This document shows, piece by piece, positions 6,037-61,020 of a stretch of DNA of 64,000 nt (the stretch's first letter is position 1; each line of letters opens with the position of its first letter). Both the position numbers and the translations under genes were made by a program. The DNA lies in assembly GCF_001427785.1 (NCBI RefSeq), contig NZ_LMHM01000017.1:208662-272661 (forward strand), read 5' to 3'. Source of the stretch: Lysobacter sp. Root690 (GTDB lineage Bacteria > Pseudomonadota > Gammaproteobacteria > Xanthomonadales > Xanthomonadaceae). The notes beneath the pieces are model-generated. The model saw only the letters and a program-made list of their open reading frames with translations, was not told where the DNA came from and made no database searches.

Positions 6037-6225
6037 ATGAGCGATGTTTCCGAAGGCGCGGCCCTGGTCGCCCAGTGGCGCACCGATGCTGAAAGCAACA
6101 ACCCGGCGGGTCCTCTGTTCATCGGAGGCGAGTACGTAGAGTCGGACATCATCGGTGAAGTGGCTCCGGCCATCACCGGGTGTTCGCTTTGTACCGGTTC
6201 GATGCGCATTAACTGCTGCGCCTGA
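6037..6225 (+). CDS. Class II lanthipeptide precursor peptide (LanA1)
   Basis: A 62-residue peptide starting at ATG 6037 with AAGGAG at 6025-6030 as ribosome site. The leader contains NNPAGPLFIGGEYVES (residues 21-36), which matches the leader of the second precursor at 23159-23368. The C-terminal part is Cys-, Ser- and Thr-rich: C49, C52, C60 and C61, with T47, S50, T53 and S55 as dehydration candidates. It ends in a double Cys plus Ala. A LanM gene follows 260 bases downstream. There is no standard double-Gly cleavage site; Pro44-Ala45 is the closest candidate, which would give a 17-residue core. I infer up to four thioether rings. Confidence 0.75.
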   Translation: MSDVSEGAALVAQWRTDAESNNPAGPLFIGGEYVESDIIGEVAPAITGCSLCTGSMRINCCA

Positions 6226-6247
6226 TCCACGCGACACCCGATGGGTT

Positions 6248-6293
6248 CCAGGCCGTCCGCCGAATCTCGCAAGCGGCGCCGGCGGCCTGGTTT
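6248..6293 (+). terminator. Hairpin between lanA1 and lanM1 (possible attenuator)
   Basis: CCAGGCCG at 6248-6255 pairs with CGGCCTGG at 6283-6290, with further inner pairing, followed by TTTAT. It lies between precursor and synthetase, as does a similar hairpin in the second cassette. Partial termination here would give more precursor than enzyme. Confidence 0.45.
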
Positions 6294-6484
6294 ATCGGCC
6301 GCGCCTGCGTGCCGGTCGCGCATCCCCGGGTTCGGCAACGACCCGACTTCTTACCGATTCGCTACGGCCGCAAGGGCGATGCCATGGATGCAATGCAGCA
6401 TGCGCGCGGCGGGCATCGCCGTCGCGGTGACGTGAGCCCGGTTGCGCGGTTGCGTTTCCCGCCAGCCATCGCGGCCGATCGCGC

Positions 6485-9367
6485 GTGACCGTCGCCGCGA
6501 TCCAGGAAAATTTCGAAGCCTCGCTGCATTGCCTGGTCGAACCGGCGCTCGATGCGCTGCGTGCCGACCTTGCCGCCGTCGCCGGATTGGCCGCGGGCGA
6601 ATCCGAAGCGGTGCTCGCCGCGACCGGCGAATCGCTGCTCGCCTTCCTGCACGGCAAGGTCGCCCGCGTGCTGGTGCTCGAACTCAACGCCGCGCGCGTC
6701 ACCGGCCGCCTCGATGGCAGCGATGCCGCGCAGCGCTGGGCGCAGTTTCGCGAGCTGTCCTCGCAGCGCTCGTTCTGGGACGAACTTGCGCCGCATTACC
6801 CTTCCTTGCCGCTGCGCATCGGACGGATCGTCGCGAATCGCTGCGCGGCGTCGCTGAATTTCGCCCGCCATTGGGTCGCCGACAAAGAAATGCTGGCGCC
6901 GTTGTGCGGCAATGCACCGGGCGAGCTGCGGCAACTGAGTTTCGGCGCCGGCGACAGCCATCGCGGCGGGCTGTCGGTCGCGCTGTTGCGGTGCGATGGC
7001 GGCCGGCTGGTGTACAAGCCGCGTTCGGTCGCGATCGACGATGCCTTGCATGCGTTCGTTGCCGAGCTCAGCGCCGACGCCGCTATCGAATCGAGCATCC
7101 GCGTACCGCGTGTCATCGACGGCGGCGAGCACGGCTGGGCCGAGTTCGTCGCCCACCGTTACGCCGCCGACGAGGTCGAACTTGGCGCGTTCTATCGCGG
7201 CATCGGCCATTGGCTGGCGATCATGCGCGTGCTCGGCGGCAGCGATTTGCACGCCGAGAATCTGATCGCCGCCGGGCCGAGCCCGGTAGTGGTGGACTGC
7301 GAAACCTTGTTCACCCCGCGCATCGCGCCGCATCCGTCCGGTTTCGGCGAGGCCTACGATCAGGCCGCGGGCCTGCTCGGCCGCAGCGTGCTGACCATCG
7401 GCCTGCTGCCCGGACGCGGCCAGGGGCTGGGTTGGCGCGGGGTCGACAACTCCGGCATCGGCATGTTGCCGGGGCAGCAGCCGATGATGCCGCTGCCGCA
7501 TATTCTCCAGGCCGGCACCGATCAGGCGCATATCGGCATGGCGATGTTCGAGGCCGGCGTGGCCCAGAACCATCCCTGCGCGCAACCGGCGCTGGCGCGG
7601 TTCTGGCCCGATGTGCTCGATGCCTTCGACGGCATGACCGCGCATCTGCAGCGGCTCGACGACAGCGGCGCGTTGCGGCAACGGTTACAGCGCTTCGCCG
7701 ATTGCGAAGTGCGCGTGGTCACGCGCGCGACCGAGGTCTACGCCGAGATCGGTCGCATGCTGTGGCATCCGGTTTCGCTGCACGACGATGCCGCCGCGCG
7801 ACGGCGCGCGCACGACGTGCTGTCGAAGATGGCGGGCAATAACTCGATCGCGCCGGCCGATCCCGCGGTGATCGAGGCCGAGATCGACGATCTGTTCGAC
7901 GGCGACGTTCCGTTCTTCAGCACGCTCGCGCGCGACGGCCGCCTGGTCGGTCCACGCGGTACGTTCTGGCTTGCGCCTTGCGATCTGGTCGACCACGCCC
8001 TGCAGCAATGGCGCACGTCCGACCTGCCGTTGGAGCGCGGCATCATCCAGGCCGCGCTGGTCAGCGCCTATCTCAACGATGGCTGGGTGCCGAGCGAGCA
8101 ATCGCTGCGGCCGCAACAGGTGCGCGACGGCGATATCGAATCGCGTCGGCGCGCACAAGCGGCCGCGATCATGCGCCGCTTGCTGGATGCGGCGATTCGC
8201 GGCCGCGACGGCAGCGTCGTCTGGATCGCGCCGAGCGTAAGTCCGACCGGATCGTCGATCCAACCGATCGAACAGGATCTGTACGGCGGCATCTGCGGCA
8301 TCGCGCTGCTCGCGGCGGCCTATGCGCGCGAAACCCTGGCCGGTCGCGCCGACCCGGTCGACGGCGTCGACGAGTTGTTGGCCGCGGCGCTGCATACGCT
8401 CGATCTGGCCGAAGACAAGCGCCGCGTCGCCGAAAGCCGCGCGCTCAAGCTGCGGCCGCGATCGATCGGCGCTTACATCGGCCTGGGTTCGCAGATCTGG
8501 ACCCATCTCGTGCTGGCGCATTGGGGTCGCGACGGCGGTCAGGGCGTGCAACGCGCGCGCGCGCTGGCCGATCGCATTCCGGCCGCCGCGACCGCCGAGC
8601 GCAGCAACGATCTGATCGACGGCGTGGCCGGCGCGATCGCGCCCTTGCTCGCGCTGGCGAACGCGAGCGGCGAGTCGGGCTATCTGACGATGGCCTGCGA
8701 ACTCGGCGATCTGTTGGCCGAACGCGCCCAGCACCGCGACGGCACCGCGTACTGGGCCGAAACGCGCTGGCCCGACGGCATGGGCGGCTTCGCCCACGGC
8801 GCCACCGGTATCGGCTGGGCCTTGAGCCGGCTCGCTCGCGCTTCCGGCCAGTCGAGTTATCAGACGCTGGCGCAAGCGGCGTTCGCGTTCGAGGATGCGT
8901 TGTTCGATCAGGACGAAGGCAACTGGCTGGATCTGCGCGACTTCGAAGAAGCGCGTTCGACCGCGGCGTGGTGCCACGGCTCGGTCGGCATCGGCCTGGC
9001 TCACGTCGATCTCGATCCACGGTTGAGCGATTCCGCCACGCGCCTGCTGGTGCGGCGCGCGGCGGCGGCGACCTGGCGCATGGGGCTCGGCGCGAATCAC
9101 GGCCTGTGCCATGGCGATCTGGGCGCGTGGGAATTGCTGGACCACGCGATCGCGCTCGGCGAAGCGCCGCAGGGGCTCGGTCGTGAGCATGTGCTGGCAT
9201 CGATCCTGACCAGCCTGGAGGATCACGGCCCGACCTGTGGCGTGTTGCGCGATACCTTCGTGCCCGGCCTGATGTCGGGACTGGGCGGCATCGCCTATCA
9301 ACTGCTCAGGGCGCATCCCGACAGCGACCTGCCGTCGGTGTTGACGCTCGCCGATCCGGGTCGCTGA
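6485..9367 (+). CDS. lanM: Class II lanthipeptide synthetase LanM1
   Basis: 960 residues, the normal length for LanM, from GTG 6485; an in-frame stop at 6428-6430 leaves no clear alternative start. The N-terminal two thirds is the kinase-like dehydratase (DUF4135). K178 in VYKPRS, D254/H256/N259 in GSDLHAENL and D271/E273 in VDCETLF occupy the expected phosphorylation and elimination sites. The C-terminal third (from about 590) is a LanC-like cyclase with GATGIGW, the zinc ligand Cys830 in AWCHGS, and Cys875-His876 in LCHGD. It should dehydrate Ser/Thr of LanA1 and then form thioethers in the cytosol. All catalytic positions I can identify are intact. Confidence 0.93.
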   Translation: MTVAAIQENFEASLHCLVEPALDALRADLAAVAGLAAGESEAVLAATGESLLAFLHGKVARVLVLELNAARVTGRLDGSDAAQRWAQFRELSSQRSFWDELAPHYPSLPLRIGRIVANRCAASLNFARHWVADKEMLAPLCGNAPGELRQLSFGAGDSHRGGLSVALLRCDGGRLVYKPRSVAIDDALHAFVAELSADAAIESSIRVPRVIDGGEHGWAEFVAHRYAADEVELGAFYRGIGHWLAIMRVLGGSDLHAENLIAAGPSPVVVDCETLFTPRIAPHPSGFGEAYDQAAGLLGRSVLTIGLLPGRGQGLGWRGVDNSGIGMLPGQQPMMPLPHILQAGTDQAHIGMAMFEAGVAQNHPCAQPALARFWPDVLDAFDGMTAHLQRLDDSGALRQRLQRFADCEVRVVTRATEVYAEIGRMLWHPVSLHDDAAARRRAHDVLSKMAGNNSIAPADPAVIEAEIDDLFDGDVPFFSTLARDGRLVGPRGTFWLAPCDLVDHALQQWRTSDLPLERGIIQAALVSAYLNDGWVPSEQSLRPQQVRDGDIESRRRAQAAAIMRRLLDAAIRGRDGSVVWIAPSVSPTGSSIQPIEQDLYGGICGIALLAAAYARETLAGRADPVDGVDELLAAALHTLDLAEDKRRVAESRALKLRPRSIGAYIGLGSQIWTHLVLAHWGRDGGQGVQRARALADRIPAAATAERSNDLIDGVAGAIAPLLALANASGESGYLTMACELGDLLAERAQHRDGTAYWAETRWPDGMGGFAHGATGIGWALSRLARASGQSSYQTLAQAAFAFEDALFDQDEGNWLDLRDFEEARSTAAWCHGSVGIGLAHVDLDPRLSDSATRLLVRRAAAATWRMGLGANHGLCHGDLGAWELLDHAIALGEAPQGLGREHVLASILTSLEDHGPTCGVLRDTFVPGLMSGLGGIAYQLLRAHPDSDLPSVLTLADPGR

Positions 9368-9435
9368 GCACGTCGATATCCGACGCGGCGCGCGGCGACC
9401 GCACCGGATTCGATCGAATCGTTGCGACGCGGCGG

Positions 9436-10380
9436 TCAGGGCTTGGGATGGGCGAGAAAGAAATCCCAGGTCAGGTTGCTGGCGTCGGGGCCGGAGGTGT
9501 CGCCGTACAGGCTGCAGGCGCAGCCGCCGGGATAGGCATGGCCCGCGCCGTCGATCATGTATTGCTCGATCAATGATTGGCCCGCGGCGTCGCGATAGGT
9601 CGTGCGCGTATACGAGCGACCGCCGGGAACCTGAGCGTATTCGACCTCGTCGGCGACCGCATCGATGCCATCGATCGTCGCCCATTGTACGGCGATGCGA
9701 TCGGCCGTTGCCGGTGGAACGACGATATCGGCGGTGCCCTGGAAGATAATCGCGGGCACCGCGCGACGGCGGCTGCCCATTTCGGCGATCGCCTTGTTCC
9801 CGGCGGCCGCCCCCGATTGCTGTTGCAGGATGTCGCAGTCGTACTCGCAGCCGGCCAGGATGCTGGTGGCCGCATACACATCGGGATAGGCGATGGCCAT
9901 GATGTTGGCCATGACGCCGCCCGCGGACACGCCGGTGACGTAGATGCGCTTCGCATCCACGCTGTACTGCGAGCGCACCTTGTTGGTGATGCCGGCGATC
10001 AGCGCCGGTTCGCCCATGCCGCGATGACGGTTGCTGCTCAGGAACCAATTCCAGCAGCCGGCCGGGTTGGCGAAATTGTTCTGGTCGGGAAACACCACGA
10101 TGAAGCCGCGTTGCTCGGCCACGCGCGCCCAACCCGACAGCAGTTCGAAGCCGACGTCGTTCTCGGTGCAGCCGTGCAGCGCGACCAGCAGCGGCATCGC
10201 CACGCCTGGCCGATAACTCGTCGGTACATAGCCATGGTAGTCGCGTGCGCCAAACACGCTGATGTAGGCGCCGTTGAAGTAACCGGCGGCGTAGGAGGGA
10301 CTGGGGATCGCGACGGCCAGCATCAGCGCGGCCAGCGCGAGGATGAGGCGTCGGCGTAGCGACTTGCGCAACTCGTACAT
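9436..10380 (-). CDS. Secreted short-chain PHA depolymerase-like esterase
   Basis: 314 residues from the ATG at 10380, with an AGGAG ribosome site just upstream. A signal peptide (LILALAALMLAVAIPSPSYA) precedes an alpha/beta-hydrolase domain of the extracellular PHB-depolymerase (type 1, LpqC-like) family. Visible motifs are the oxyanion region LLVALHGCTEND, the nucleophile elbow VTGVSAGGVMAN and the C-terminal catalytic His in GAGHAYPGG. It should cleave short-chain polyhydroxyalkanoates or similar esters outside the cytoplasm; feruloyl-esterase activity is the main alternative. It is divergent from the MaoC gene and convergent with lanM1, whose end is about 70 bases away. Confidence 0.85.
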   Translation of the reverse strand: MYELRKSLRRRLILALAALMLAVAIPSPSYAAGYFNGAYISVFGARDYHGYVPTSYRPGVAMPLLVALHGCTENDVGFELLSGWARVAEQRGFIVVFPDQNNFANPAGCWNWFLSSNRHRGMGEPALIAGITNKVRSQYSVDAKRIYVTGVSAGGVMANIMAIAYPDVYAATSILAGCEYDCDILQQQSGAAAGNKAIAEMGSRRRAVPAIIFQGTADIVVPPATADRIAVQWATIDGIDAVADEVEYAQVPGGRSYTRTTYRDAAGQSLIEQYMIDGAGHAYPGGCACSLYGDTSGPDASNLTWDFFLAHPKP

Positions 10381-10744
10381 GCCACGGTCTCCTGGTGGGT
10401 ACGGCGGGTGGAGCGTGCGGACGGTCCGGGCCAAGCGGCGGCGATGTTCGCGATCGCCACTGCCGGCGATGCGCGGAATCCGCGAGAGGGCGGATCGCCG
10501 GGTAGCGGTGTTGTAGCCGCTTGCGGGCCACCGCGTTTTACCGTCGGCGAACTCGTTGTTGACCTGGGCCGACCCCGAATTGCGAGCGGCATCGCGCGAC
10601 GCCCGCAACCGCCTTGTAGTCGCGCGGCAGGTCCGCAATGATGCGGCGACGCCGGCGCGGGTTCGACTCCACGCCACGGATCGCTTGAAACGAGGTCGTT
10701 TCGGCGGCTCGCCGCGCAACCCCATCGCAACCCGTGGAGAGGGC
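10381..10744. other. 364-base divergent promoter region
   Basis: Lies between the secreted esterase (minus) and the MaoC gene (plus) and must hold both promoters. The MaoC ribosome site GGAGAGGG is at 10736-10743. No clear palindrome or coding signal was seen. Confidence 0.4.
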
Positions 10745-11206
10745 ATGACCGCTCGCTATAGCCTGGATACCGTCGCCGATTTCGTGTCGCAGGAAATCGG
10801 CGTGACCGACTGGCAGGCGGTCGAGCAGGCGACGATCGATCAGTTCGCCTCGGCCACTGGCGACCGGCAATGGATCCATGTCGATGTCGAGCGCTGCCGC
10901 CAGGAAAGCCCGTTCGGCGGCCCGATCGCGCACGGGTTCTTGTTGCTGTCGCTGCTCGCGCCGATGCAGATGCGGCTCGGGCTGATGCCTTCGGGCGTTT
11001 CGCGGGCGATCAACGCCGGCCTGGGCGAGGTGAAGTTCCAGTCGCCGGTGCTCGCCGGCGAATCGGTGCGGCTGCGGGTGACCCTGGCCTCGGTCGAACC
11101 CAAGGGCGCCGACCGCGTGTTGATGGTCACCCGCAACGTGCTGGAAGTGCAGGGCAAGGACAAGCCGGCGCTGACCGCGAGCATGGCGGCGATGCTGTAT
11201 CGCTAG
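10745..11206 (+). CDS. MaoC-family (R)-enoyl-CoA hydratase/dehydratase
   Basis: 153 residues from ATG 10745. The hot-dog fold hydratase motif is clear: FASATGDRQWIHVDVERC followed by SPFGGPIAHGFLLLSL, which carries the catalytic Asp and His of MaoC/PhaJ hydratases. The length matches single-domain PhaJ-like enzymes. It would hydrate trans-2-enoyl-CoA to (R)-3-hydroxyacyl-CoA or the reverse, in beta-oxidation or PHA-related metabolism. The nearby secreted esterase, TonB receptor, hydrolase and acyl-CoA ligase suggest one catabolic module. I infer the physiological substrate comes from that pathway. Confidence 0.85.
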   Translation: MTARYSLDTVADFVSQEIGVTDWQAVEQATIDQFASATGDRQWIHVDVERCRQESPFGGPIAHGFLLLSLLAPMQMRLGLMPSGVSRAINAGLGEVKFQSPVLAGESVRLRVTLASVEPKGADRVLMVTRNVLEVQGKDKPALTASMAAMLYR

Positions 11207-11231
11207 GCGTCGCCGCCGGTCGCGCTCGCGC

Positions 11232-12194
11232 TCAGTGGCGGCGCAACTGGGTCGGCGACACGCCGTAGATCTGGCGGAACACCCGGCAGAAATTCGATTG
11301 CGAGCGAAAGCCGTTGCGGTAGGCGATTTCCGAGATCGGCAGGTTCGCCAGCGCGGCGCTGGTCAACATCTCGCGCGCCTTGCTCAGGCGCAGCGCGCGC
11401 AAGCGTTCCATCACCGACTGGCTGCTGTCGCGGAACAGCCGATGCAGATAGCCCTCGGAGATGCCGCAGCGCCGGGCGATGGTCTCGGCCGACAGATCTT
11501 CGTCGGCGTAATGCGATTCGATGCAGTCCAGCGCCTTCTGCTTGTGCGCGGCGGCCAGCGAACGATCGTCGCAGAAGGTGCGGGTATCGCCGCGCAGCAT
11601 CAACGCGACCAGATCGCATAGCTGGGTGGTCAGCACCTGCGCTTCGCTGTCGCCGATCTGGCCGGCGAGGCGATCGATCTGGCGCGCGTACACGCCGAGC
11701 AATTCGGCGCGCGGGTCGCTGCCGTCGAGCGGCGCGGAAAACACCGTCGGCAGGTTGGATACGCGCTGGCGCAGCAGGTGCACCGGGATCAGGGTGTTGA
11801 AGCTTTCGTAGTGGCCTTCGGGCTGCACGTCGCCGACCACCGCCGCGGAGATGAGATAAATGCGTCGCGGCTCCAGCAGCACCTCGTGACCGCCGACGAC
11901 ATTGCGCGAGCGCCCCGCCGCCGGCAGCGCCAGCACGTAGTTCTGCGCCAGCCCGGACAGATGCACCGAGGTGCGGCGCATGTGCAGGCCGCTGAGCGCG
12001 ATGTGATTGAGCTGCAGCGCGCCGACCGACTGGCTCGCCAGCCAGCCCATGCGGCCCTCGGGCCGGGTCAGCTGGATGTCGGCGCTGCCAAACCCGGGCG
12101 AGGACACGGTCGACCAGCCGCCCGTCGCGACCGCGGGACTCGGCGCATTCCTCGCGGAAAACACTACGCGCGTGGAAGGAACGGTTGCGGACAT
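11232..12194 (-). CDS. AraC-family transcriptional regulator
   Basis: 320 residues. The N-terminal part resembles the AraC-like ligand-binding domain of the AraC_binding_2 type. The C-terminal 100 residues form the double helix-turn-helix of AraC/XylS proteins, with DLSAETIARRCGISEGYLHR and AYRNGFRSQSNFCRVFRQ as the two recognition units and ending near GVSPTQLRRH. It is divergent from the TonB receptor gene and convergent with the MaoC gene. It probably activates the receptor/hydrolase/ligase operon in response to the imported ligand or a derivative. Confidence 0.88.
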   Translation of the reverse strand: MSATVPSTRVVFSARNAPSPAVATGGWSTVSSPGFGSADIQLTRPEGRMGWLASQSVGALQLNHIALSGLHMRRTSVHLSGLAQNYVLALPAAGRSRNVVGGHEVLLEPRRIYLISAAVVGDVQPEGHYESFNTLIPVHLLRQRVSNLPTVFSAPLDGSDPRAELLGVYARQIDRLAGQIGDSEAQVLTTQLCDLVALMLRGDTRTFCDDRSLAAAHKQKALDCIESHYADEDLSAETIARRCGISEGYLHRLFRDSSQSVMERLRALRLSKAREMLTSAALANLPISEIAYRNGFRSQSNFCRVFRQIYGVSPTQLRRH

Positions 12195-12376
12195 CGGCCA
12201 CCTCGGGCGGATCGGATCAGCGGCATCTTAGGAGCGATCCGGCCCGCGCCGCATGTTGCGACGCAGCACATCGAGTGCAGTCATCGTCAATGCGCGGTGC
12301 TGCAAACGTAGAACCGACCCGGCGCATGGCCGCTATGTTGCTTGCGACACACCGGCGCCGATGGGGCGCGGTTCGG

Positions 12377-12393
12377 GTCGGACGCGGTCCGAC
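12377..12393. promoter_or_regulatory. Inverted repeat in the AraC/TonB divergent region
   Basis: GTCGGAC at 12377-12383 and GTCCGAC at 12387-12393 are a perfect 7+7 repeat around GCG. It lies about 80 bases before the TonB receptor start and could be a regulator site. In high-GC DNA this could be chance. Confidence 0.3.
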
Positions 12394-12470
12394 GCCGGAC
12401 CGCACGCGGCGCGGCATGCATCCGATGACGGCCGCGCCTTGCGCGGCCATGGGCGAGGGGATCGAACGAA

Positions 12471-14699: not shown

Positions 14700-15636
14700 G
14701 CACTCGCCAGTCGCGAACCCATCGCACGCAGGGGATTTGACACCCACCATGTCGGCCGAACGATTCAATACGCTGCGCTGGCGCAGCCAGGACGGATTGC
14801 AGCTGTACGCACGCGATTATCCGGGCGCGCCCGGCGTCGAGGCATCGGCGCGTTGCCCGGTGATCTGTATTCCCGGCCTGACCCGTAATTCGGCCGATTT
14901 CAATGAGATCGCGGCGACGGTGGCGGCGAGCGGACGGCGGGTGCTGGCCGTGGATCTGCGCGGACGCGGACAGTCGCATTACGCCACCGATCCGGCGACG
15001 TACAGCGTCGATACCTATGCGCTCGACATCCTCGAACTGATGCGCTCGCAATCGATCTCGCGCGCGGTGTTCATGGGCACCTCGCTCGGCGTGTGGGTAA
15101 CGCTGACCATCGCCTCCAAGCGCGCCGACGCAGTGGTTGCGGCGGTGCTCAACGATGCCGGACCGGAAGCGCCGAAGGCCGCGCTGGACCGGATCGCGCG
15201 TTACGCCGGCATTCCGGTGCCGCCGATGACGCGCGAGGACGCCGCGGCCTATATCGAGCGGATCGGCGCCGCGGCCTATCCGCGTTATACCCGCGCCGAT
15301 TGGGTCGGCATGGTCGACCGGATGTTCCGCGTGCGCGACGACGGGCTGCTGGTGCTCGACTACGACCCGCGCATCATTCGCACCCTGGGCCCGATCAAGC
15401 TGTGGTTGCTGCGGCCGCTGCTGTGGCGCCTGTACCGCAAGCTCGCCACGCAACGGCCGACCTTGATCCTGCGCGGTGAGTTGTCGGACGTGCTCGAAGC
15501 GCGCACCGCGCGGCGCATGGCGGCGGTGTCGCCCACCGCCCGTCTGATCGAAGTGGAGCAGGTCGGGCATGCGCCGTCGCTGTCGGAGCCCGATGCGGTC
15601 GCCGCGATCATGGCGTTGTTGCGCGAGGTGGATTGA
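14689..15636 (+). CDS. Alpha/beta-fold hydrolase
   Basis: 315 residues if translation starts at ATG 14689, which overlaps the receptor stop by 11 bases; ATG 14749 (MSAERFN) is an alternative that gives 295 residues. The core fold is an alpha/beta hydrolase with the nucleophile elbow MGTSLGVWV, a preceding VLAVDLRGRGQS strand, and a C-terminal catalytic His in VGHAPSL. No signal peptide was seen, so it is probably cytosolic. It likely hydrolyses an ester or lactone imported through the upstream receptor, giving the acid for the ligase gene downstream. Confidence 0.85.
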   Translation: MNSEHSPVANPSHAGDLTPTMSAERFNTLRWRSQDGLQLYARDYPGAPGVEASARCPVICIPGLTRNSADFNEIAATVAASGRRVLAVDLRGRGQSHYATDPATYSVDTYALDILELMRSQSISRAVFMGTSLGVWVTLTIASKRADAVVAAVLNDAGPEAPKAALDRIARYAGIPVPPMTREDAAAYIERIGAAAYPRYTRADWVGMVDRMFRVRDDGLLVLDYDPRIIRTLGPIKLWLLRPLLWRLYRKLATQRPTLILRGELSDVLEARTARRMAAVSPTARLIEVEQVGHAPSLSEPDAVAAIMALLREVD

Positions 15637-15739
15637 ATCGATCGCCCGGGCTTGTCGCAACCCGAGCCTAAAGCATCGGGACTCAGGTCCCGCCCATGAA
15701 AATCACGTGGCTAGCTCGCAGCCTGGAGACTCCCGCGTC

Positions 15740-17323
15740 ATGCTCAACATCCCCACGCCGTTGTTGCCCGAGATCTTCGCGACCCATGGCCGCTGGCTCG
15801 GCACCAAGCCGGCGATCGTCGCGCCGGACCGGAGCCTGGACTGGCGCAGCCTCGACGCGCATACCAACCGGATCGCCAACGCGCTGATCGCGAGCGGCGC
15901 GCGCCATGGCGATCGCATCGCGATGCTGATGTCGAACTGCATCGAGATGGCCGAGCTCATCGTCGGGATCATGAAGGCTGGCTGCGTCGCGGTTCCGCTC
16001 AATACCGCGGTCAGCGACGCCAGCGCGGCGGCGATGATTGTCGACGCGGGCGCGATGATGGTGTTCGCCACCGCCGATCATGCCGCGCGTGTGCAGCCGA
16101 TGGCGGGGGTTGCGCGGATCGAAGTCGAAGCGGTCGCGAGTTCGAGCGATGACCGTTCGAGAGATGGCGGATGGCAGGCGTACGCGGATTGGCTCGGCAC
16201 CGCCGATGTCGAGCCGCCGAATGTTCCGATCGCAGGCGCCGACCTGTGCAACATCATCTATTCCTCCGGCACCACCGGCGAGCCGAAGGGCATCGTGCAC
16301 AGTCATCAGGCGCGACTGCTGTGGGCCTACGACATTGGCCTGGCCCTGCGCCAGCATTCGGGCGCGCGCAGCCTGATCGTGACCGGGCTTTATTCGAACA
16401 TCAGCTGGGCGGCGTTGCTGGGAACCTGGCTCAGCGGCGGCACCGTGGTGCTGCGCCATGGTTTCGATGTGGCCGACACCCTGGCGACGATCGCGCGCGA
16501 GCGGATCACGCATACGGCGATGGTGCCGGTGCAGTACCAGCGGCTGCTCGATCATCCCGCGTTCGCGGCGACGGATCGTTCCTCGCTGCAAATGGTGATG
16601 AGCGTGGGCTCCTCCCTACCGTTGACGACCAAGGCGCGCTTGATCGAGACCTGCCGCTGCGATGTGGTCGAGGTGTACGGCACCACCGAAGGCATCCTCA
16701 CCGCATTGGCGCCGGAAGACGCGCAAGACCGGCTCGCCTCGGTCGGCAAGCCGCTGCCGGGCGTGCAGTTGTCGATTCTCGACGCGGACGATCGCCCGGT
16801 CGCGGCCGGGCAGGCGGGCGAGATCGTCGGCCGCAGCCGGTTCGCGATGGACGCGTACTGGCGCCGACCCGCGGCGACCGCCGAGGCGATATGGATCGAT
16901 GCCGATGGACGGCCGTGGCTGCGCACCGGCGATATCGGACGCCTCGACGACGAGGGCTATCTGTACATTCTCGATCGCAAGAAGGACCTGATCATCTCCG
17001 GCGGACAGAACCTGTATCCGGCCGATATCGAAGCGGTGCTGATGGAGCACGAGGACGTCGGCGAATGCGCGGTGATTGGCATCCCCAGCCCGACCTGGGG
17101 CGAATCGCCGCTGGCGTTGGTCGTGCTCAAGGATGGGGGCTCCAAGCAGCGCGGCGCCGCCGATGCCGAGCAGATCAAGGCCTGGCTCAATCAGCGCGTG
17201 GGCAAGCAGCAGCGCGTGGTCGCGGTCGAGCTGCGCGAGCATTTGCCGCGCAATCCCACCGGCAAGCTGCTCAAGCGCGAACTGCGTGCGCCGTATTGGC
17301 TGGATGCTCGGCCCGGGGCCTGA
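15740..17323 (+). CDS. Acyl-CoA synthetase (AMP-forming ligase)
   Basis: 527 residues from ATG 15740, with GGAG 9-10 bases upstream. Motifs of the acyl-adenylate family are complete: P-loop-like IYSSGTTGEPKG near residue 175, VEVYGTTEG near residue 310, LRTGDIGRLDD and the C-terminal LPRNPTGKLLKREL with its catalytic Lys. It adenylates a carboxylic acid and transfers it to CoA. The context (receptor and hydrolase upstream, MaoC hydratase nearby) fits activation of a fatty or aryl acid. The substrate cannot be told from sequence. Confidence 0.88.
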   Translation: MLNIPTPLLPEIFATHGRWLGTKPAIVAPDRSLDWRSLDAHTNRIANALIASGARHGDRIAMLMSNCIEMAELIVGIMKAGCVAVPLNTAVSDASAAAMIVDAGAMMVFATADHAARVQPMAGVARIEVEAVASSSDDRSRDGGWQAYADWLGTADVEPPNVPIAGADLCNIIYSSGTTGEPKGIVHSHQARLLWAYDIGLALRQHSGARSLIVTGLYSNISWAALLGTWLSGGTVVLRHGFDVADTLATIARERITHTAMVPVQYQRLLDHPAFAATDRSSLQMVMSVGSSLPLTTKARLIETCRCDVVEVYGTTEGILTALAPEDAQDRLASVGKPLPGVQLSILDADDRPVAAGQAGEIVGRSRFAMDAYWRRPAATAEAIWIDADGRPWLRTGDIGRLDDEGYLYILDRKKDLIISGGQNLYPADIEAVLMEHEDVGECAVIGIPSPTWGESPLALVVLKDGGSKQRGAADAEQIKAWLNQRVGKQQRVVAVELREHLPRNPTGKLLKRELRAPYWLDARPGA

Positions 17324-17656
17324 TCGGCGGCTGCATCCGCCCGAGGTGGTGCGGCAGTAGCTGGGCTGGCGCCGCGAACGGATCGGGCGGCGGTCCCGTG
17401 CGACGCTGTCCGCTTGAAGCAAGAGGTTTGCGATCTGCTTGCCATCGGTCGCGAATGCAACCGGCCCGCGCCGCGATGTCGCGCGCGTTCCGGACCGCGC
17501 GCCGGGGCCAGGCCCCGGCGGCGGCTTGCGCATGGCGAATCGCCGGACGCTTTCAGTCCGCGCCGTCGATTCGCTTGGCGCGTCGACGATCGAACAAGCC
17601 GGGCGTTACCGTCCGCATGCGGGGCGATCCCGCGCGCGACTCACGCCCGTGCAGGC
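17324..17656. other. 333-base intergenic region with a GC hairpin
   Basis: Lies between the ligase and the acidic-tail gene (convergent). It contains a perfect GC-rich hairpin, GCCGGGGCC at 17501-17509 and GGCCCCGGC at 17511-17519, with no T-run. No coding or other signal was seen. Confidence 0.4.
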
Positions 17657-17899
17657 TTATTCGTCCTCGCCTTCCTCTTCCTCTTCTTCGTCCTCGTCTT
17701 CTTCGTCCTCATCCTCGTACTGCTGGCCCAGCGAGTAGCGAATCCACGGCTCGCCCTCGGTGTGCTTGCCGGTGGCGATGGCAATGAGCACCCAGCCTTC
17801 GTCCAGCAACCGATTGACGTCCTGCACGCTGTCGGTCTCCTGGACCGTTCCGATCGTTTCCAAATCCACTGTGGGTGTTTCCTTGAGGGCGGCCGACAA
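17657..17899 (-). CDS. Small protein with poly-acidic tail, unknown function
   Basis: 80 residues from a TTG at 17899. The first 60 residues look folded (SVQDVNRLLDEGWVLIAIATG and WIRYSLGQQYE) and resemble small DUF1737-like domains; this is only a loose resemblance. The last 18 residues are DEDEEDEDEEEEEEGEDE, encoded by a low-complexity GAG/GAC/GAA tract. Such acidic tails bind basic proteins, cations or nucleic-acid-binding partners in other systems, but nothing specific can be said. It is on the same strand as the M13 peptidase upstream and could be its downstream neighbour in transcription. Confidence 0.6.
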   Translation of the reverse strand: MSAALKETPTVDLETIGTVQETDSVQDVNRLLDEGWVLIAIATGKHTEGEPWIRYSLGQQYEDEDEEDEDEEEEEEGEDE

Positions 17900-18014
17900 G
17901 GATAAATCAGCCGCGTGTCATGGGTAAGAACGCGGTGTCGTCGGCGCAGACCCGGCGAGCGGTCTCGGGAGGTCCGGGTCGGTCCGGACCACGGCGATCA
18001 TCGAGTCGAGGCGG

Positions 18015-20090
18015 TTACCAGATCGAGGCGCGTCGCTCGGGCGCTGCGAACAGTTTCGCCCCGGCGTCCACGTCGAACGCGTCGTACCAGGCCTGCAGAT
18101 TGCGCACTACGCCGTTGACCCGATACCGCGACGGCGAGTGATAACCGCGCTCGATGTCGGCGCGCAGCGAATCGTCGCTGTCGAGCGAGCGCCACAACTG
18201 CGCCCAGCCCAGGAAGAAGCGCTGTTCGCCGCTGAATCCGTCGCGCAGCGCGTGGGTGTCGATGCCGTGCGCCGCCGCATACAGGCGATACGCGTCCAGG
18301 GCCACGGTGACGCCGACCAGGTCGGCGAGGTTCTCGCCGAGGCTGCGGCGGCCATCCAGATGCGCGCCGGGCAGCGGCGCATACGCGGAGTACTGGGTTA
18401 CCAATACCTCGGTCTTCGCCTCGAACGCGGCGCGCGCGGGCGGCGACCACCAGTCGCGCAGATTACCGGCATCGTCGAAGCGCGAGCCCTGATCGTCGAA
18501 ACCGTGCGCCATCTCGTGGCCGAGCACCGCGCCGATCGCGCCGAAGTTGACCGCGCTGTCGGCGCCGGCGCTGAAGGCCGGCGCCTGCAGCAGCCCGGCC
18601 GGAAACGTCACCGCGTTGAGTTGCGGGCTGAAACTGCCGTCGACCGACTGCGGCGGCAGATGCCAGCGGTACGGTCGTTCCGGATCGTTGAGATACAGCG
18701 CATCGAGCTTGATTTGCGCGGCCTTGAGGCGATGGATATTGCCGATCGGATCGTTCGGCAGGATCTCGACTTCGGCGTAGTCGCGCAGGTCGTCGGGATA
18801 GCCCAGACGCAGCCCCATCCGCTCGATCTTCGCCAGCGCGGTCGCGCGCGTCGCCGGGTCCAGCCAGTCGGCCTTGGCGATGCGCGCGCGGAACGCCTGC
18901 TTCATGAAGGGCGCCATCGCCTCGACCGCGTCGCGATCGGCCGATTTGAAGAACTGCGCGACGTAGCGGGCGCCGACCAGTTCCGGCAGGTTCTGGCTGA
19001 CGAACTGGATGCCGCGCTCCGCGCGCGAGCGTCGGGTTTTCTGACCGGCCAGGGTGGTGCCGTAGAACTGGAAGCTCGCATCCTGGAACGCGGTCGGAAG
19101 CAGGTGCGCGTGGTTGTGGACCCAGTGGAAGGCCAGGTACGAACGCCAGGTATCCACCGGGGTCGCGGCGAAGATGGCCGCGCTGTCGCGGATGGCGGTG
19201 TCGGTGTTGAGCACCACGGTATCGACCGGGGGATACCCGCTGGCGGCGAGGAACGCCCGCCAGTCGAAGCCGGGCGCGTAGTCCGACAGTTCGGCGAACG
19301 GCATCGGGTGGTAGTTCAATGTGCGGTCGCGCAGCTGCTGCGCGTTCCATTGGACTTTGGCGAGCTTCGCCTCCAGCGCCAGGATCGCGGCGGCGCGGGC
19401 CGCGCCGTCGGCGATGCCGACGCGGGCGAAGGTCTGCGCGATGTAGTCGAGGTAGGCCGCGCGCAGGTTGGCGTATTGGTCGCTGCCGGTGTCGTAGTAG
19501 CCCGGGTTCGGCAGGCCGACGATGCGGCCGTTCGCGGTCTGCTGGTCCAGATGCAGCAGGCTCCGGCGCGTATCGCCGGCATCCAGGAACACGTAGCAGC
19601 CGACGATGGTGTGCGAGAGCGGGTGGGCCATGCGCTGCGCGACCTGGGCATGGTCGGCGATGGCCGCGATCGCATCGAGGTCGGCGCGGATCGGCGCGAT
19701 GCCGGAGCGGTCGATCGCCGCCACGTCCGCGTAGCTGGTGTACAGGTCGGCGAGCTTGTCGCCGCCCGCGGGTCGCGCGGCGGCGACTTCGATGATGGTC
19801 TTGATGCGCGCCTGCGTGCGCAGGAACATCGCGTTCAATTCGCCGTACTGCGCATAGCCCGCGGGCCGCGTGGCGGTGTCGATCCAGCCCTGATTGACGT
19901 ACTGGAAGAAGTCGTCGCCGGGTCGCAGCGTGTCGCTGATATGGCTCAGGTCGATGCCCCAGTCGGCGGCGGGCGTCGCCGCCGCGGCGAAGGCGTGACG
20001 GGTCGCCGCGGCCAAGGGCAGCAGCGCCAGCCCCATGCAGATCCGTCTGCGCTCGAGGGACAGGCTCGACGGTGGTTGGCGATCGCTCAT
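18015..20090 (-). CDS. M13-family (neprilysin-type) zinc metallopeptidase
   Basis: 691 residues from the ATG at 20090. A GTG at 20123 is in frame but lies inside a palindromic operator, so I reject it. The N-terminus SLERRRICMGLALLPLAAA is a twin-arginine-like export signal ending near AFAAAA, so the enzyme acts outside the cytoplasm. The zinc site is complete: His525-Glu-Met-Ala-His529 in GHEMAHGFDD and Glu586 in GENLADLVG. M13 enzymes cleave oligopeptides. The gene follows lanM2 on the same strand, with an operator between them. Confidence 0.9.
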   Translation of the reverse strand: MSDRQPPSSLSLERRRICMGLALLPLAAATRHAFAAAATPAADWGIDLSHISDTLRPGDDFFQYVNQGWIDTATRPAGYAQYGELNAMFLRTQARIKTIIEVAAARPAGGDKLADLYTSYADVAAIDRSGIAPIRADLDAIAAIADHAQVAQRMAHPLSHTIVGCYVFLDAGDTRRSLLHLDQQTANGRIVGLPNPGYYDTGSDQYANLRAAYLDYIAQTFARVGIADGAARAAAILALEAKLAKVQWNAQQLRDRTLNYHPMPFAELSDYAPGFDWRAFLAASGYPPVDTVVLNTDTAIRDSAAIFAATPVDTWRSYLAFHWVHNHAHLLPTAFQDASFQFYGTTLAGQKTRRSRAERGIQFVSQNLPELVGARYVAQFFKSADRDAVEAMAPFMKQAFRARIAKADWLDPATRATALAKIERMGLRLGYPDDLRDYAEVEILPNDPIGNIHRLKAAQIKLDALYLNDPERPYRWHLPPQSVDGSFSPQLNAVTFPAGLLQAPAFSAGADSAVNFGAIGAVLGHEMAHGFDDQGSRFDDAGNLRDWWSPPARAAFEAKTEVLVTQYSAYAPLPGAHLDGRRSLGENLADLVGVTVALDAYRLYAAAHGIDTHALRDGFSGEQRFFLGWAQLWRSLDSDDSLRADIERGYHSPSRYRVNGVVRNLQAWYDAFDVDAGAKLFAAPERRASIW

Positions 20091-20102
20091 GCGCGCGGCT
20101 CT

Positions 20103-20124
20103 TGTGACTACAGATGTAGTCACA
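20103..20124. promoter_or_regulatory. BlaI/MecI-type operator
   Basis: A 22-base perfect palindrome: arms TGTGACTACA at 20103-20112 and TGTAGTCACA at 20115-20124 around GA. The centre ACTACA-N2-TGTAGT matches the BlaI/MecI repressor consensus (TACA-N2-TGTA core). It lies 13-34 bases before the preferred start of the M13 peptidase. No BlaI-type gene is present in the window. Confidence 0.65.
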
Positions 20125-20178
20125 CTAGCACGATGCGAGGCCGCGGCAACGGACCGAAGCCGTCGCGTCGGCCGCGCT

Positions 20179-23019
20179 TCAGGCCATCGCCACCCGTCGT
20201 TCCAGCAGCAACGGCGAGGCCAGTCCCGATTGCGGATGCATGCGGTTGAGGCCGTGGATCGCGCCTGACAGGCCGGTCATCAGACCCGGGGTGAACGCGG
20301 CGCGGGTCAGGCCGCCGACCATGCCGCGATGTTCTTCGATCGAGGAAACGATCTGCGCGGTGGCCTCGTCGGGATCGGTCGCGCACTGCTCCGGATCCAG
20401 CGCGGCCGCGGTGATCAACAATTCGCGCAACGACATATCGCCGTGGCACAGGGTGTGGCTGGTGCCCCATTGATCGCGCACGGTGGCGACCGCGCGGCGC
20501 ATGGTGCGCAAATGGCGCGGGCCGCGCGTGCGCGCGTACAGATCGCAGGCGCTCAGGCCGATGCCGACGCTGCCGTGGCACCAGGTCGGGAAGTTGAAGC
20601 TGCCGTCGACCTCGCGCGAATCGACCCAATTGCCGAGGGTTTCGTCGTAGCACGATTCCTGGAAGGCGAAGGCCGCGTCGGACAACGCACTCCAGCGCGC
20701 GCGCTGCGTTGCGTCGCCGGCTCCGGCCAGGACCAGCCGCGCCAGCGCCCAGGCGATGCCGGTGGCGCCGTGGGAAAAGCCGTTCGATGGCCGCGGCGAT
20801 CCGCTGGTCGGCCAGCGCGCGCCGCGTTCGTCGACGATCGCGCCCGCTTCCAGCCGCTGCGCCGCGCGCGTGGCCAGCGCGGTCCAGCGCGCGTCGCCGG
20901 TCGCTTCGGCCAATCCGAGCAGCGGCACGATCGCGCCGGCGGCGCCGTCGATGATGTCGAAGTGCTCGTCGTCGTCGAAACCGCGTTGTTCCAGCGCCTG
21001 CGCGCTGGCGATCGCGTGCGGCAGCAGTTCCGGCCGTCGCAGCAGATCATGCAGGGTCAGCCAGGTCCACACCTGCGAGGCGTAACCGGTGAAGCCGCCG
21101 ACCTTGTCGGGCACGTCGATCGCTTCCATCGCGATCTGGCTTTGCAGCGCGCCTTGCAGCGCCTGTTCGACGCCGTCGACCGGATCGGCGCGGCCGTGCT
21201 GGACTTCATGCTGATAGCCGGCCAGCACCACGGCGACGCCGCCGAGCCCGAAATACAGATCGGCGCGCACCGGCTGCACCAGCCAGCCGCCCTGGGTGAT
21301 CTCGGGCGTGATCCAGGTGGTCGAGCCGTCGTCGCCGCGCACCGATAGCCGCAGCAGTCGCGCGATCGCCTCGGCCGCGAGCTTGCGCCGGCGCGTTTCG
21401 AGCCGGTCGCGATGCGGATGGCGGGCGACGTAGCGATGGCCGCTGCGCTCTTCTTCGCGATCGCGCATGCGTTGATTGAGGTCGGTGGCGACCAGCGCGC
21501 TGCGGATCGTCAGTTCTTCCAGATCGCTGCGCATGCCGCGCCAGTCGGTCAGCACGCCGTCGATCCGATCGGCGCTCAGCGGTTCTACGAAGATCGGCAC
21601 GTCGCCGTATCTGAGCGCATCGATCTCCGCCAGGATGTCGATGTCGCTGGAACGTTCGTTGGGCGCCATGATCGCGTTGCGTTCGAACAGGTCGCGCGCG
21701 CGTTCGATCGCCTCGGCTTCCTTGTGCAGCGAGGCCGGGTGCCACAGCATGCGTCCGACTTCCACGTAGGCGCGAGTGGTGCGGCGGATATCGCGCACCT
21801 TGCAGCCTTCGAAACCCGCGAGCAGCGGCGCGAGTTCGCCGGCATTGTCGAGTTGGCGCAGGCGCGCGGTGCTGGCGAGGAAGCCCTCGCTGATTTCGTC
21901 CCAATAACGCGACACGTCCGGCCGCGGGCTGGGGTGGTTCTGGGCGACGTCGACATCGACTTCCACGACTTTCAATCGCGCCTGGGTCGTGCCTTCGTCG
22001 ACGATGGTCGGCGCGCGCACCTTGGGCTGCTGATCCGGCAATGCGCCGGCGGCGGACATGTCGACGCCTTCGAAGCCGAGCGCGCGGGTGCGGAACGGCA
22101 CGATCCCGGTACGCAGCACCGAATTGCGGATCAGCGACTGGGCGAAATCGAAGGCCTGGCCGTAGGGCGTGGGCGCCGCGGCGGGCACGATCTCGAACAG
22201 GCTTTCGACGTCGATCACCACCGGCACCGGGCCGACCGCGATCAGGTTTTCCAGATGGATGTCGGTGCCGCCGAGCAGACGCAGCACCGCGAGCCAATGG
22301 CCCAGGCCGCGATAGAAGGTGCGTAATTCGTCGTCGTTGTCGCAGTAACGATGCCTGGCGAACGCGGCCCAGCCATAGCGGTCGCGGTCGATCACCGCGG
22401 GCACGTAGACGCGATGGGGTTCGTCGCCGAACACCTGCGAAAGGAAATTTTCGAGTGCGGCGTCCACGCGCAGCGAGCGCGGCTTGTACATGATCGCGCC
22501 GCCGTGCAGCGACAGCTTGGCGACGGTCTGGCCGCCATCGTGCAGATCGCCCTGGCCGAGTGAAAACCCGGTCAGTTGTCCGGCCGGGCCGTCGAGCAGC
22601 GGCGTCAGCAGATCGCGGTCGGCGATGAAGCGTTCGACCAGCAGTTCGATCGCGTGGCGTTGCTGATCGAGCGCGCGCTGCAATCGCGCGCGCAGCGGTG
22701 GATAGCGGCGGTCGAGGTGTTCGGTGAACGGAGGCAGCACGCAGTTGCCGACGAACTGGGCGAAGCGGCCGGCATCGTCTGGCGCGGTGAGTTCGCCGGC
22801 GCGTTGGGCCGCATGCAATTCCAGCAGCAGGACGCGATTGAGTTTGAACCTGACGTTGTTGTACAGCGCCTCGTCGGCCGCGGCCTGGATCAGCGCGATT
22901 TCGGCGGGCGACAGCTGCGCCGAAAACATCGTGAGGCGGGCAGTGAAGGTGGCGCGCGCGGGCGCGGCGAAATGATCGATGATGCGGGCGAACGCATCGG
23001 TTGAAACCGTTTCGCTCAT
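20179..23019 (-). CDS. lanM: Class II lanthipeptide synthetase LanM2
   Basis: 946 residues. Dehydratase residues correspond one-to-one with LanM1: K179 in YKPRS, D253/H255/N258 in GTDIHLENL, and D270/E272 in VIDVESLF. The LanC-like cyclase follows, with HGATGIAW, the zinc ligand Cys814 in TWCHGS and Cys858-His859 in LCHGD. All appear intact. It is a clear homologue of LanM1 at 6485-9367 but substantially diverged, so it is an old or separately acquired copy. The precursor lanA2 lies 139 bases upstream on the same strand. Confidence 0.93.
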   Translation of the reverse strand: MSETVSTDAFARIIDHFAAPARATFTARLTMFSAQLSPAEIALIQAAADEALYNNVRFKLNRVLLLELHAAQRAGELTAPDDAGRFAQFVGNCVLPPFTEHLDRRYPPLRARLQRALDQQRHAIELLVERFIADRDLLTPLLDGPAGQLTGFSLGQGDLHDGGQTVAKLSLHGGAIMYKPRSLRVDAALENFLSQVFGDEPHRVYVPAVIDRDRYGWAAFARHRYCDNDDELRTFYRGLGHWLAVLRLLGGTDIHLENLIAVGPVPVVIDVESLFEIVPAAAPTPYGQAFDFAQSLIRNSVLRTGIVPFRTRALGFEGVDMSAAGALPDQQPKVRAPTIVDEGTTQARLKVVEVDVDVAQNHPSPRPDVSRYWDEISEGFLASTARLRQLDNAGELAPLLAGFEGCKVRDIRRTTRAYVEVGRMLWHPASLHKEAEAIERARDLFERNAIMAPNERSSDIDILAEIDALRYGDVPIFVEPLSADRIDGVLTDWRGMRSDLEELTIRSALVATDLNQRMRDREEERSGHRYVARHPHRDRLETRRRKLAAEAIARLLRLSVRGDDGSTTWITPEITQGGWLVQPVRADLYFGLGGVAVVLAGYQHEVQHGRADPVDGVEQALQGALQSQIAMEAIDVPDKVGGFTGYASQVWTWLTLHDLLRRPELLPHAIASAQALEQRGFDDDEHFDIIDGAAGAIVPLLGLAEATGDARWTALATRAAQRLEAGAIVDERGARWPTSGSPRPSNGFSHGATGIAWALARLVLAGAGDATQRARWSALSDAAFAFQESCYDETLGNWVDSREVDGSFNFPTWCHGSVGIGLSACDLYARTRGPRHLRTMRRAVATVRDQWGTSHTLCHGDMSLRELLITAAALDPEQCATDPDEATAQIVSSIEEHRGMVGGLTRAAFTPGLMTGLSGAIHGLNRMHPQSGLASPLLLERRVAMA

Positions 23020-23113
23020 CGGATCTGCGAATCCTTGCGGTGGGACGGAACCGGTCGCGTTGCGCGATCGATCATTGGCGAGACGTCATTGATGAGAGCG
23101 TAACTGCTAAGAA

Positions 23114-23144
23114 CGCGCAGCCGCGCACGAGGCCCGGCTGCGCG
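23114..23144 (-). terminator. Hairpin between lanA2 and lanM2 (possible attenuator)
   Basis: CGCGCAGCCG at 23114-23123 pairs with CGGCTGCGCG at 23135-23144 over an 11-base loop. On the minus strand it is followed by TTCTT. It has the same position as the hairpin in cassette 1. Confidence 0.5.
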
Positions 23145-23158
23145 CGGTTATGTACAAC

Positions 23159-23368
23159 TCAGCAGCAAGCGCAACCGCCACCGTAGCTGCAGGTGGTCTT
23201 GCCGAGCGTGCCGCACGCGCCGAGCGTGGCGCGCATGTCGGTGTTGCCGAGCGCCGCTTCGGCTACGGCCTGACCTTCAATGTAGAGCGAACCGGCCGGA
23301 TTGGCCTGGCCGTCGATGCTGTCGGAACCGTTGAGCCAGCCGGACACGACGTCGTCATTGTTCTGCAT
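23159..23368 (-). CDS. Class II lanthipeptide precursor peptide (LanA2)
   Basis: 69 residues from ATG 23368, with AGGAGA just upstream on the minus strand. The leader has NPAGSLYIEGQAVAE (residues 23-37), like NPAGPLFIGGEYVES in LanA1. The C-terminal part carries C52, C60, C66, C68 and C69, with T54, T58, T59 and S61 as dehydration candidates and a Gly-rich stretch GGG before the last Cys cluster. A Gly-Ala cleavage motif of the double-Gly type is present at G50-A51, giving an 18-residue core that would begin with Cys; T43 and T48 lie just before it. It matches the start of the LanM2 operon. Confidence 0.8.
   Translation of the reverse strand: MQNNDDVVSGWLNGSDSIDGQANPAGSLYIEGQAVAEAALGNTDMRATLGACGTLGKTTCSYGGGCACC

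Positions 23369-61016: not shown

Positions 61017-61020
<4 letters not shown>

Follow-up and report, generated by a model that had tools for sequence, protein, structure and literature searches.

Two facing DUF6229-LanM cassettes of Lysobacter sp. Root690, very probably independent class II lanthipeptide modules

A 64-kb stretch of the Lysobacter sp. Root690 genome (hereafter the window) contains two class II lanthipeptide cassettes, lanA1-lanM1 and lanA2-lanM2, each of which pairs a precursor gene (lanA) with a synthetase gene (lanM), and which face each other across a block of catabolic genes. Literature abstracts describe Lysobacter as a source of biocontrol and antibiotic leads, and the arrangement raises the question of whether the two cassettes form one joint system, serve the genes that lie between them, or work separately. 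Our analysis suggested that each cassette is very probably a minimal class II lanthipeptide module in its own right, belonging to the DUF6229 (rhodanocin) family, and, in the best explanation, that their proximity reflects genome history and not one joint system.

By analogy with other members of the family, each LanM would bind the conserved leader, phosphorylate and eliminate Ser and Thr residues of its own LanA, and use its zinc cyclase domain to couple Cys to the dehydro-residues. A hairpin after lanA probably allows only part of the transcripts to reach lanM, which would yield an excess of substrate over enzyme. Genes outside the cassettes would probably take care of export and leader removal, the C39/double-glycine route being unlikely; an M13 metallopeptidase whose gene follows lanM2 could act on the peptide in the periplasm, by trimming or degradation, and is treated here only as a lead. 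The products are most likely secreted antagonistic peptides that are made separately.

The two cassettes and the DUF6229 family

The initial annotation of the window had described two LanA-LanM cassettes in inward-facing orientation, and this description held. All four open reading frames proved open (Table 1), LanA1 and LanA2 matched PF19740 (DUF6229) above its gathering score (73.6 bits, E 1.2e-20, and 68.4 bits, E 5e-19, respectively; cut-off 25), and LanM1 and LanM2 matched TIGR03897 (lanti_2_LanM) with 573.2 and 506.3 bits (cut-off 304). The shared leader style noted for the two precursors was also borne out, the two leaders being related. Upstream of lanA1, an AAGGAG lies 6 nt 5' of the ATG, and an alternative in-frame GTG is present at 6034, one codon before it.

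We next aligned both synthetases with CylM, using the important residues given in the portions consulted of PMC4550811. All of these residues are kept in both proteins, as the initial annotation had claimed: the dehydratase residues are D157, H159, K178, D254, H256, N259, D271, R410 and T416 in LanM1 and D158, H160, K179, D253, H255, N258, D270, R409 and T415 in LanM2, and the zinc ligands are C830, C875 and H876 in LanM1 and C814, C858 and H859 in LanM2. At the level of sequence, this confirmed that both are intact class II LanM enzymes; their ratios of nonsynonymous to synonymous substitution (dN/dS) were 0.14-0.22. CylM and the related enzyme LicM2 are from Gram-positive systems. The homology of the window LanMs to both (structures 5dzt and 6st5) extends along most of the proteins and includes the catalytic residues.

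Table 1. Features of the window discussed in the text, in order of position.
Feature	Position	Strand	Description
Conserved stretch 5' of lanA1, with lanA1 start	5974-6125	+	152 bases identical in three species
lanA1	6037-6225	+	DUF6229 precursor, 62 amino acids from ATG; open reading frame confirmed; leader 'type 1' (ALVAQWR..A..NPAGPLFIGGEYVESDI); core about AITGCSLCTGSMRINCCA
Hairpin lanA1-lanM1	6248-6290	+	GC-rich, then TTTAT; possible partial terminator or attenuator
lanM1	6485-9367	+	Class II lanthipeptide synthetase, 960 amino acids; CylM catalytic residues and zinc ligands kept
Six-gene block	9436-17323		Polyhydroxybutyrate (PHB) esterase, MaoC-like, AraC regulator, TonB receptor, alpha/beta hydrolase, acyl-coenzyme A (CoA) ligase; not part of the cassettes
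M13 metallopeptidase (PepO/neprilysin-type)	18015-20123	-	PF05649/PF01431; behind lanM2, same strand; membership uncertain
lanM2	20179-23019	-	Class II lanthipeptide synthetase, 946 amino acids; CylM catalytic residues and zinc ligands kept
Hairpin lanA2-lanM2	23113-23145	-	CGCGCAGCCG...CGGCTGCGCG, then TTCTT; z -2.5
lanA2	23159-23368	-	DUF6229 precursor, 69 amino acids; open reading frame confirmed; leader 'type 2' (DDVVSGWLNGSDSIDG..NPAGSLYIEGQAVAEAAL); core about ATLGACGTLGKTTCSYGGGCACC
Generic ABC-2 exporter pair	59983-61778		37 kb away from the cassettes

By their profile matches, both precursors belong to the rhodanocin family and are thus of a kind already known. In the portions consulted of PMC9576775, a Dyella DUF6229 peptide was made in E. 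coli with its cluster, its rings were solved by nuclear magnetic resonance (NMR), and the family was named rhodanocins. In those of a preprint (PMC11451712), DUF6229 accounts for 21 of the 27 unique Lysobacter class II precursors; these share genus and precursor family with the window genes and have different ring layouts, and the same portions make no mention of a facing pair, a lack of C39 or a hairpin.

DUF6229 was present in 16 of the 20 Lysobacter-genus genomes searched; across the order, 43 of 397 sampled genomes had it, representing 13 of 98 genera (at most 15 candidates were scored per genome). Neighborhoods were compared in two sets of loci. The 71-locus set combines all 31 DUF6229 loci of the Lysobacter genus with 40, mostly the best-scoring, of the 56 listed matches from other genera; the 80-locus set holds the best 80 of 140 relatives found with a LanM2-type alignment as query, so that LanM1-type neighbors are hardly sampled in it. 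A scan of this second genome set with LanM1 alone as query gave no relatives, and the LanM2-type alignment succeeded. The sets share 27 loci, leaving 124 distinct ones, and 36 of the 80 are Actinomycetota according to their record titles. Flanks of at most about 10 kb per side were covered, less at contig ends, and genes were called by a simple codon-bias script, which missed genes in lower-GC loci (L136). Genomes, contigs and loci are designated below by G, C and L numbers, G000 being the genome of the window.

LanM adjoined a DUF6229 precursor in 71/71 loci of the first set, and a precursor lay shortly upstream of LanM in 79/80 loci of the second. The pairing was therefore seen in 123 of the 124 distinct loci, the exception being L207, in which LanM is 96 bases from the contig end. 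Two loci, L120 and L136, at first sight had DUF6229 without LanM, and this was rejected when tblastn found a LanM in both. The usual unit is lanA plus lanM, often with a hairpin between them, and no common partner gene was found beside DUF6229-LanM in the actinobacterial loci. Such modules span Lysobacter, Stenotrophomonas, Luteimonas, Rhodanobacteraceae, Streptomyces, Amycolatopsis and Catenulispora; despite this pairing with LanM, the Pfam label of the precursor remains a domain of unknown function.

The 6.3-Mb window genome, in which the window is on contig C17, has three DUF6229 genes, the two in the window and one at C1:730107. Its LanM complement comprises four full genes, in addition to one LanC-only match and one partial DUF4135 match. 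The fourth LanM (L018, G000:C13:286743-289265) has no DUF6229 partner and has an open reading frame of 50 amino acids just upstream; together with L162-L165 it represents a second LanM group in Lysobacter, with neither a DUF6229 precursor nor C39 in the fetched flanks. Separately, L208, from a record titled Bacillus subtilis SK7B5, is a Stenotrophomonas-like DUF6229-LanM locus with a similar precursor and a LanM 60% identical to LanM2; this contig may be a contamination.

Origin of the facing arrangement

LanM1 and LanM2 are about 40% identical. In a LanM tree made by a quick method (77 rows), LanM1 fell in a clade of 20 and LanM2 in a clade of 51, both with a support of 99 in the Shimodaira-Hasegawa-like approximate likelihood ratio test (SH-aLRT); long-branch warnings apply, among others, to L120 and L136. 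The nearest relative of LanM1 outside its own species group was L120, from another family, to be read with caution given its long branch, and those of LanM2 were from Luteimonas and Lysobacter. A local duplication of one cassette was rejected because the LanMs belong to two deep clades. Facing cassettes within 20 kb of each other were found in 3 of the 20 Lysobacter genomes (G000, G001 and G016). Two others (G003 and G008) carry a LanM1-type and a close LanM2-type cassette that also face each other, 97-99 kb apart; the orthologue of gene 28348 is no more than 50 kb away. Such a pattern suggests a common region in which distances changed later, and we take it as history and not function.

The initial annotation had considered that the cassettes could encode the two jointly acting peptides of a two-component lantibiotic. 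They do resemble the LanII-2D / S. roseosporus two-component lantibiotic (portions consulted of PMC9576775) in that the two precursors differ in their cores and a pair of LanM genes lies close together, here as two LanA-LanM pairs within 17 kb, and the facing arrangement is kept in G001 and G016 and, over the longer distance, in G003 and G008. In addition, all eight LanM1-type Lysobacter genomes hold a LanM2-type cassette, which says little, as all 16 DUF6229-positive genomes of the genus do so. However, in contrast to LanII-2D, the window pair has no recognized shared transporter, nor was a shared immunity gene recognized, and homologues of each half occur alone: LanA1 kin were found without the LanA2 subtype in G018, G002, G014 and G333, and LanA2 kin without the LanA1 type in G311 and G352, among the at most 15 candidates scored per genome. 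The two precursors are thus not kept together across genomes as alpha and beta partners. A lipid II-type motif was found in 0/73 precursors of the 71-locus set and in neither window core, and the two LanMs differ in their deep clades and nearest relatives. These results do not support the two-component proposal, which we regard as very unlikely. The same annotation had speculated on a link to the intervening PHA-esterase/TonB/CoA-ligase genes. One reading of such a link is that the cassettes belong to a module for lipid or polyhydroxyalkanoate (PHA) ester catabolism and might provide, for example, a secreted surfactant that aids substrate uptake. Block and cassettes are close together in three genomes, and five other Lysobacter loci (L056-L060) also have a PHB-depolymerase-like esterase (32-37% identical), about four genes away from LanM. 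Against this, G004 (L166) and G017 (L167) carry the whole six-gene block with unchanged gene order and orientation, while their LanM genes are elsewhere, DUF6229 cassettes elsewhere adjoin other neighbors, and the gene caller placed two extra genes inside the interval in G001, between the block and the M13 gene. A close match to the CoA ligase was present in 5 of the 20 genomes, namely G004, G017 and the three that bear the facing pair. Because it is syntenic without nearby LanM in G004 and G017, the block looks self-standing, a set of unrelated passengers, and the LanM-free copies largely refute the proposed link, leaving it a very low probability.

Core peptides and lanA transcripts

The LanA1 core contains TGCSLCTGS, which is the register T-x-C-x-x-C-T-x-S, and then a C-terminal Cys. 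This is the register of ring residues T6, C8, C11, T12 and S14 in the NMR-solved product of rhodanocin (LanII, Dyella sp. 333MFSha; portions consulted of PMC9576775), which LanA2 does not match. Because of this shared register, LanA1 likely forms interlocked methyllanthionine/lanthionine/methyllanthionine (MeLan/Lan/MeLan) rings by analogy. The LanA1 core is otherwise shorter than the rhodanocin 23-mer and ends in CCA; it lacks the equivalents of Thr18 and Cys23, and its last Cys residues fall at 19/20 in the same register, as judged by eye. LanM1 also belongs to another LanM clade than the Luteibacter/Dyella loci that share the rhodanocin register. The LanA2 core has five Cys in a layout other than that of LanA1, and its ring pattern is for this reason probably different.

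Among the 73 precursors, T.C..CT.S occurred in 7, of which 3 were LanA1 and its two orthologues, and in 16 if Ser was permitted at the first place. Four Streptomyces precursors (L209, L211, L213 and L214) have a TGCSSCTGS core with the other leader type; therefore, this type of core recurs across phyla and leader types. Many records from Streptomyces and kin (L209-L249, e.g. L235) have a DUF6229 precursor of near-identical core (DSLYGFCSSPSGSHGSWCC) with a LanM. The motif [NSH]PAG[PS]L was present in 73/73 precursors and a C-terminal CC in 72/73; in the 80-locus set, 83/83 precursors had a loose PAG-type motif and ended in, or no more than 3 residues from, Cys-Cys. Some of this uniformity stems from the search itself, in which a profile made from the DUF6229 family was used to find the precursors. 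Four conserved precursor motifs gave no match in literature full text, a search that leaves aside the figures and supplements in which precursor sequences usually stand.

We then surveyed RNA folding after lanA, using the 70 nt that follow each of the 73 precursors (from 70 of the 71 loci, L136 being left out) and 150 controls drawn at random from other same-strand gaps. A z score below -2 relative to shuffled sequences was obtained for 48/73 precursors and 34/150 controls, with means of -2.66 and -0.96, respectively. The 70 nt after the lanA1 stop fold at -31.5 kcal/mol with a z score of -1.7, and the orthologues gave -2.4 and -2.0. In the LanA2 group, a stem of 12 pairs is largely kept in 7 sequences, with 1 compensatory change and 2 pairs that are each broken in 2 sequences; the covariation term was -0.24, and the alignment lends modest support to conservation of this hairpin.

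The lanA1 region is highly constant at the nucleotide level. Within the first 34 kb, no other run of bases identical across the three species is as long as the conserved stretch in Table 1, and the best 200-base window (6001-6200) had an identity of 0.99 relative to a mean of 0.87 in the three Lysobacter genomes. Over lanA1 plus flanks (5930-6289), identity among the three genomes was 97.5%, with a mean of 87% for 200-base windows. Synonymous divergence (dS) of lanA1 was 0.02-0.05 versus 0.16-0.29 in other genes compared, lanA2 being an exception with 0.11-0.16; the LanA1 protein is 98% identical in G001 and 100% in G016. The simplest guess is a conserved promoter together with message structure, and an RNA-level constraint on lanA1 is possible. 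A sigma-70 promoter scan at lanA1 and lanA2 gave no match.

Export and leader removal

For follow-up, the most promising part of this system seems to be the export and leader-removal step that is missing across the DUF6229 family, for which the consulted literature names neither enzyme nor exporter. The absence of a peptidase-containing ATP-binding cassette (ABC) transporter (PCAT) from the window, as initially annotated, was confirmed, with no C39 domain in the 64 kb. Elsewhere in the genome, three C39 matches were found, the nearest 128 kb from the window, and two of them are in C39-ABC transporters. These two transporters (L021 and L022, at G000:C1:622236-625619 and C17:399331-402714), one of which adjoins an HlyD gene and an open reading frame of 57 amino acids, are a possible export system for other small peptides. 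To the initial statement that the window has neither a leader protease (LanP) nor a PCAT, two additions can be made: the M13 peptidase gene behind lanM2, which that annotation had overlooked, and the generic ABC-2 pair at the far end of the window.

The same absence was observed across the family. A tblastn search with the C39 regions of the two PCATs of this genome (E up to 1e-10) found none in the flanks of the 71 DUF6229 loci, and a profile of five C39 domains found none in the flanks of either the 71 or the 80 loci. The profile's training set includes all its positive controls, which are thus not independent; the tblastn search independently matched three non-DUF6229 LanM loci, L156, L157 and L161. 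In these loci (Lysobacter G005, G006 and G004), a C39-ABC transporter lies about 5 kb from a LanM-like gene, nearer the usual lanthipeptide layout. PCAT absence is thus general across the examined DUF6229 loci and not a peculiarity of the window. Five more non-DUF6229 LanM loci (L018 and L162-L165) also had no C39 in the fetched flanks; therefore, DUF6229 loci are not alone in having no C39 nearby. The precursors themselves showed no conserved double-glycine-type (GG/GA/GS) leader end: in the interval that starts 8 residues past the PAG motif and runs to the first Cys, G[GAS] occurred in 18 of the 73, at no conserved position. Consistent with another route, LahT150 failed to cleave rhodanocin, and the authors used AspN instead (portions consulted of PMC9576775).

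Exporters without C39 did recur beside LanM. By tblastn, 13 Luteibacter/Dyella-type (Rhodanobacteraceae-type) loci have a C39-less ABC exporter beside LanM, unlike the window cassettes, and the two of these that were scanned (L113 and L118) match TIGR01194, cyclic peptide export, above its cut-off. Beyond the 13, clustering identified ABC exporters in L128 and L137, the latter more MsbA-like, and L136 has one behind LanM. No exporter-type ABC protein was found in the flanks of the 31 Lysobacter-genus loci. A looser profile matched only L061 and L062 (G008 and G003) among them, behind a LanM2-type gene, and these were rejected as exporters, the L062 protein being nearest to ABC-F and below the cut-off; in the 80-locus set it matched 18 loci, some several kb from LanM. 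A Lysobacter orthologue of the Luteibacter/Dyella exporter was likewise rejected: matches with E up to 1e-60 occurred in 10 of the 20 genomes, the best being 44-45% identical (G000, G016 and G007), and in these three genomes they were not near DUF6229.

The gap between the M13 gene and lanM2 is 55 bp with a GTG start and 142 bp with the ATG chosen by the gene caller. In 8 of the 31 Lysobacter loci, a DUF6229 LanM has an M13 gene no more than three genes away (beside LanM2 in 3 genomes and beside a LanM1-type gene in 5), and the 20 genomes contain 92 M13 matches. In a tree of 27 proteins sampled from these 92, the LanM-adjacent ones separated into two orthogroups without a sister relationship, and the window protein is on a long branch. 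An M13 peptidase as the inherited partner of all cassettes was rejected, given the two different orthogroups and given that none was found in the flanks of the non-Lysobacter loci. M13 genes thus came to adjoin DUF6229 cassettes at least twice in Lysobacter, which offers a weak lead for a leader protease.

One could suppose that the M13 enzyme behind lanM2 is a dedicated leader protease, a new LanP type that is exported to the periplasm and cuts the leader there after export. Its position close behind lanM2 on the same strand, its intact zinc motifs (HEMAH and GENLAD), and an N-terminus that by eye resembles an export signal would all fit; proteins of the window score class (191-193 bits) were found only in the three genomes with the facing pair among the matches listed for the 20; and the 8 of 31 neighborhoods compare with about 0.2 expected by chance (our own arithmetic, assuming about 5,200 genes per genome). 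However, the 8 cases amount to only two events in non-sister orthogroups, members of the LanM1-adjacent orthogroup occur in G004, G005 and G006 with no DUF6229 alongside, no M13 gene was found in the flanks of the 40 non-Lysobacter DUF6229 loci or of the 80-locus set (with its LanM2-type query), and proteases were considered after the fact, so that we give this reading little credence. Slightly less doubtful, although still unlikely, is that the modified peptides are neither secreted nor cleaved and act inside the cell or with the leader still attached, in roles such as regulator or envelope peptide. Most loci have no recognized dedicated exporter, protease or immunity gene beside the cassette, the NPAGPL-type motif is universal in both sets (partly by construction, as said), and lanA1 with its upstream stretch is strongly conserved in nucleotides. 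On the other side stand the 13 Rhodanobacteraceae-type loci with a close ABC exporter, the two scanned being of the cyclic-peptide-export family; the hypervariable cores, which resemble diversifying secreted products; and the leader conservation, which is expected from LanM binding.

Several points also weigh against our preferred reading of two independent modules with secreted products. The activity of the window genes is inferred and their products are known from sequence alone. The antagonistic role is only a guess by analogy, because the DUF6229 product tested in the literature is weak: the AspN product of rhodanocin, probably with a non-native N-terminus, had a minimum inhibitory concentration of 126 uM on K. 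pneumoniae (portions consulted of PMC9576775). Convergence may account for the T.C..CT.S register of LanA1, as other LanM1-clade kin carry other cores. The co-occurrence of LanM1-type with LanM2-type cassettes in all eight genomes, described above, counts here too, though a LanM2-type cassette is present in all 16 DUF6229-positive genomes of the genus. The hairpin step fits cassette 1 less well, with lanA1 at a z score of only -1.7 and 15 of 19 LanM1-type precursors missing the -2 threshold (15 of the 25 misses). Finally, the nucleotide conservation of lanA1 may mean an RNA-level role, which the two-module account leaves unexplained.

On a wider scale, we tentatively propose, with less than even confidence, that the DUF6229-LanM pairs form one coherent family, spread across phyla, of lanthipeptide modules reduced to two genes, which evolved independently of C39 processing and relies on unlinked and partly lineage-specific machinery. 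The window would then present two of these modules next to each other in a single genome, one of them with a lanA1 message that is near-invariant in its nucleotides. The lineage-specific machinery would be the ABC exporter in Luteibacter/Dyella and possibly M13 peptidases in Lysobacter, with nothing recognized elsewhere. The family-wide question of export and leader removal is directly testable, given that C39 is lacking, that one clade has an ABC exporter and that another has M13 neighbors.

Apart from these genes, the window encodes at 38876-47551 a very large protein (2891 amino acids) with GH94 and glucoamylase-like domains, which we take to be probably a cyclic beta-glucan synthase type enzyme.

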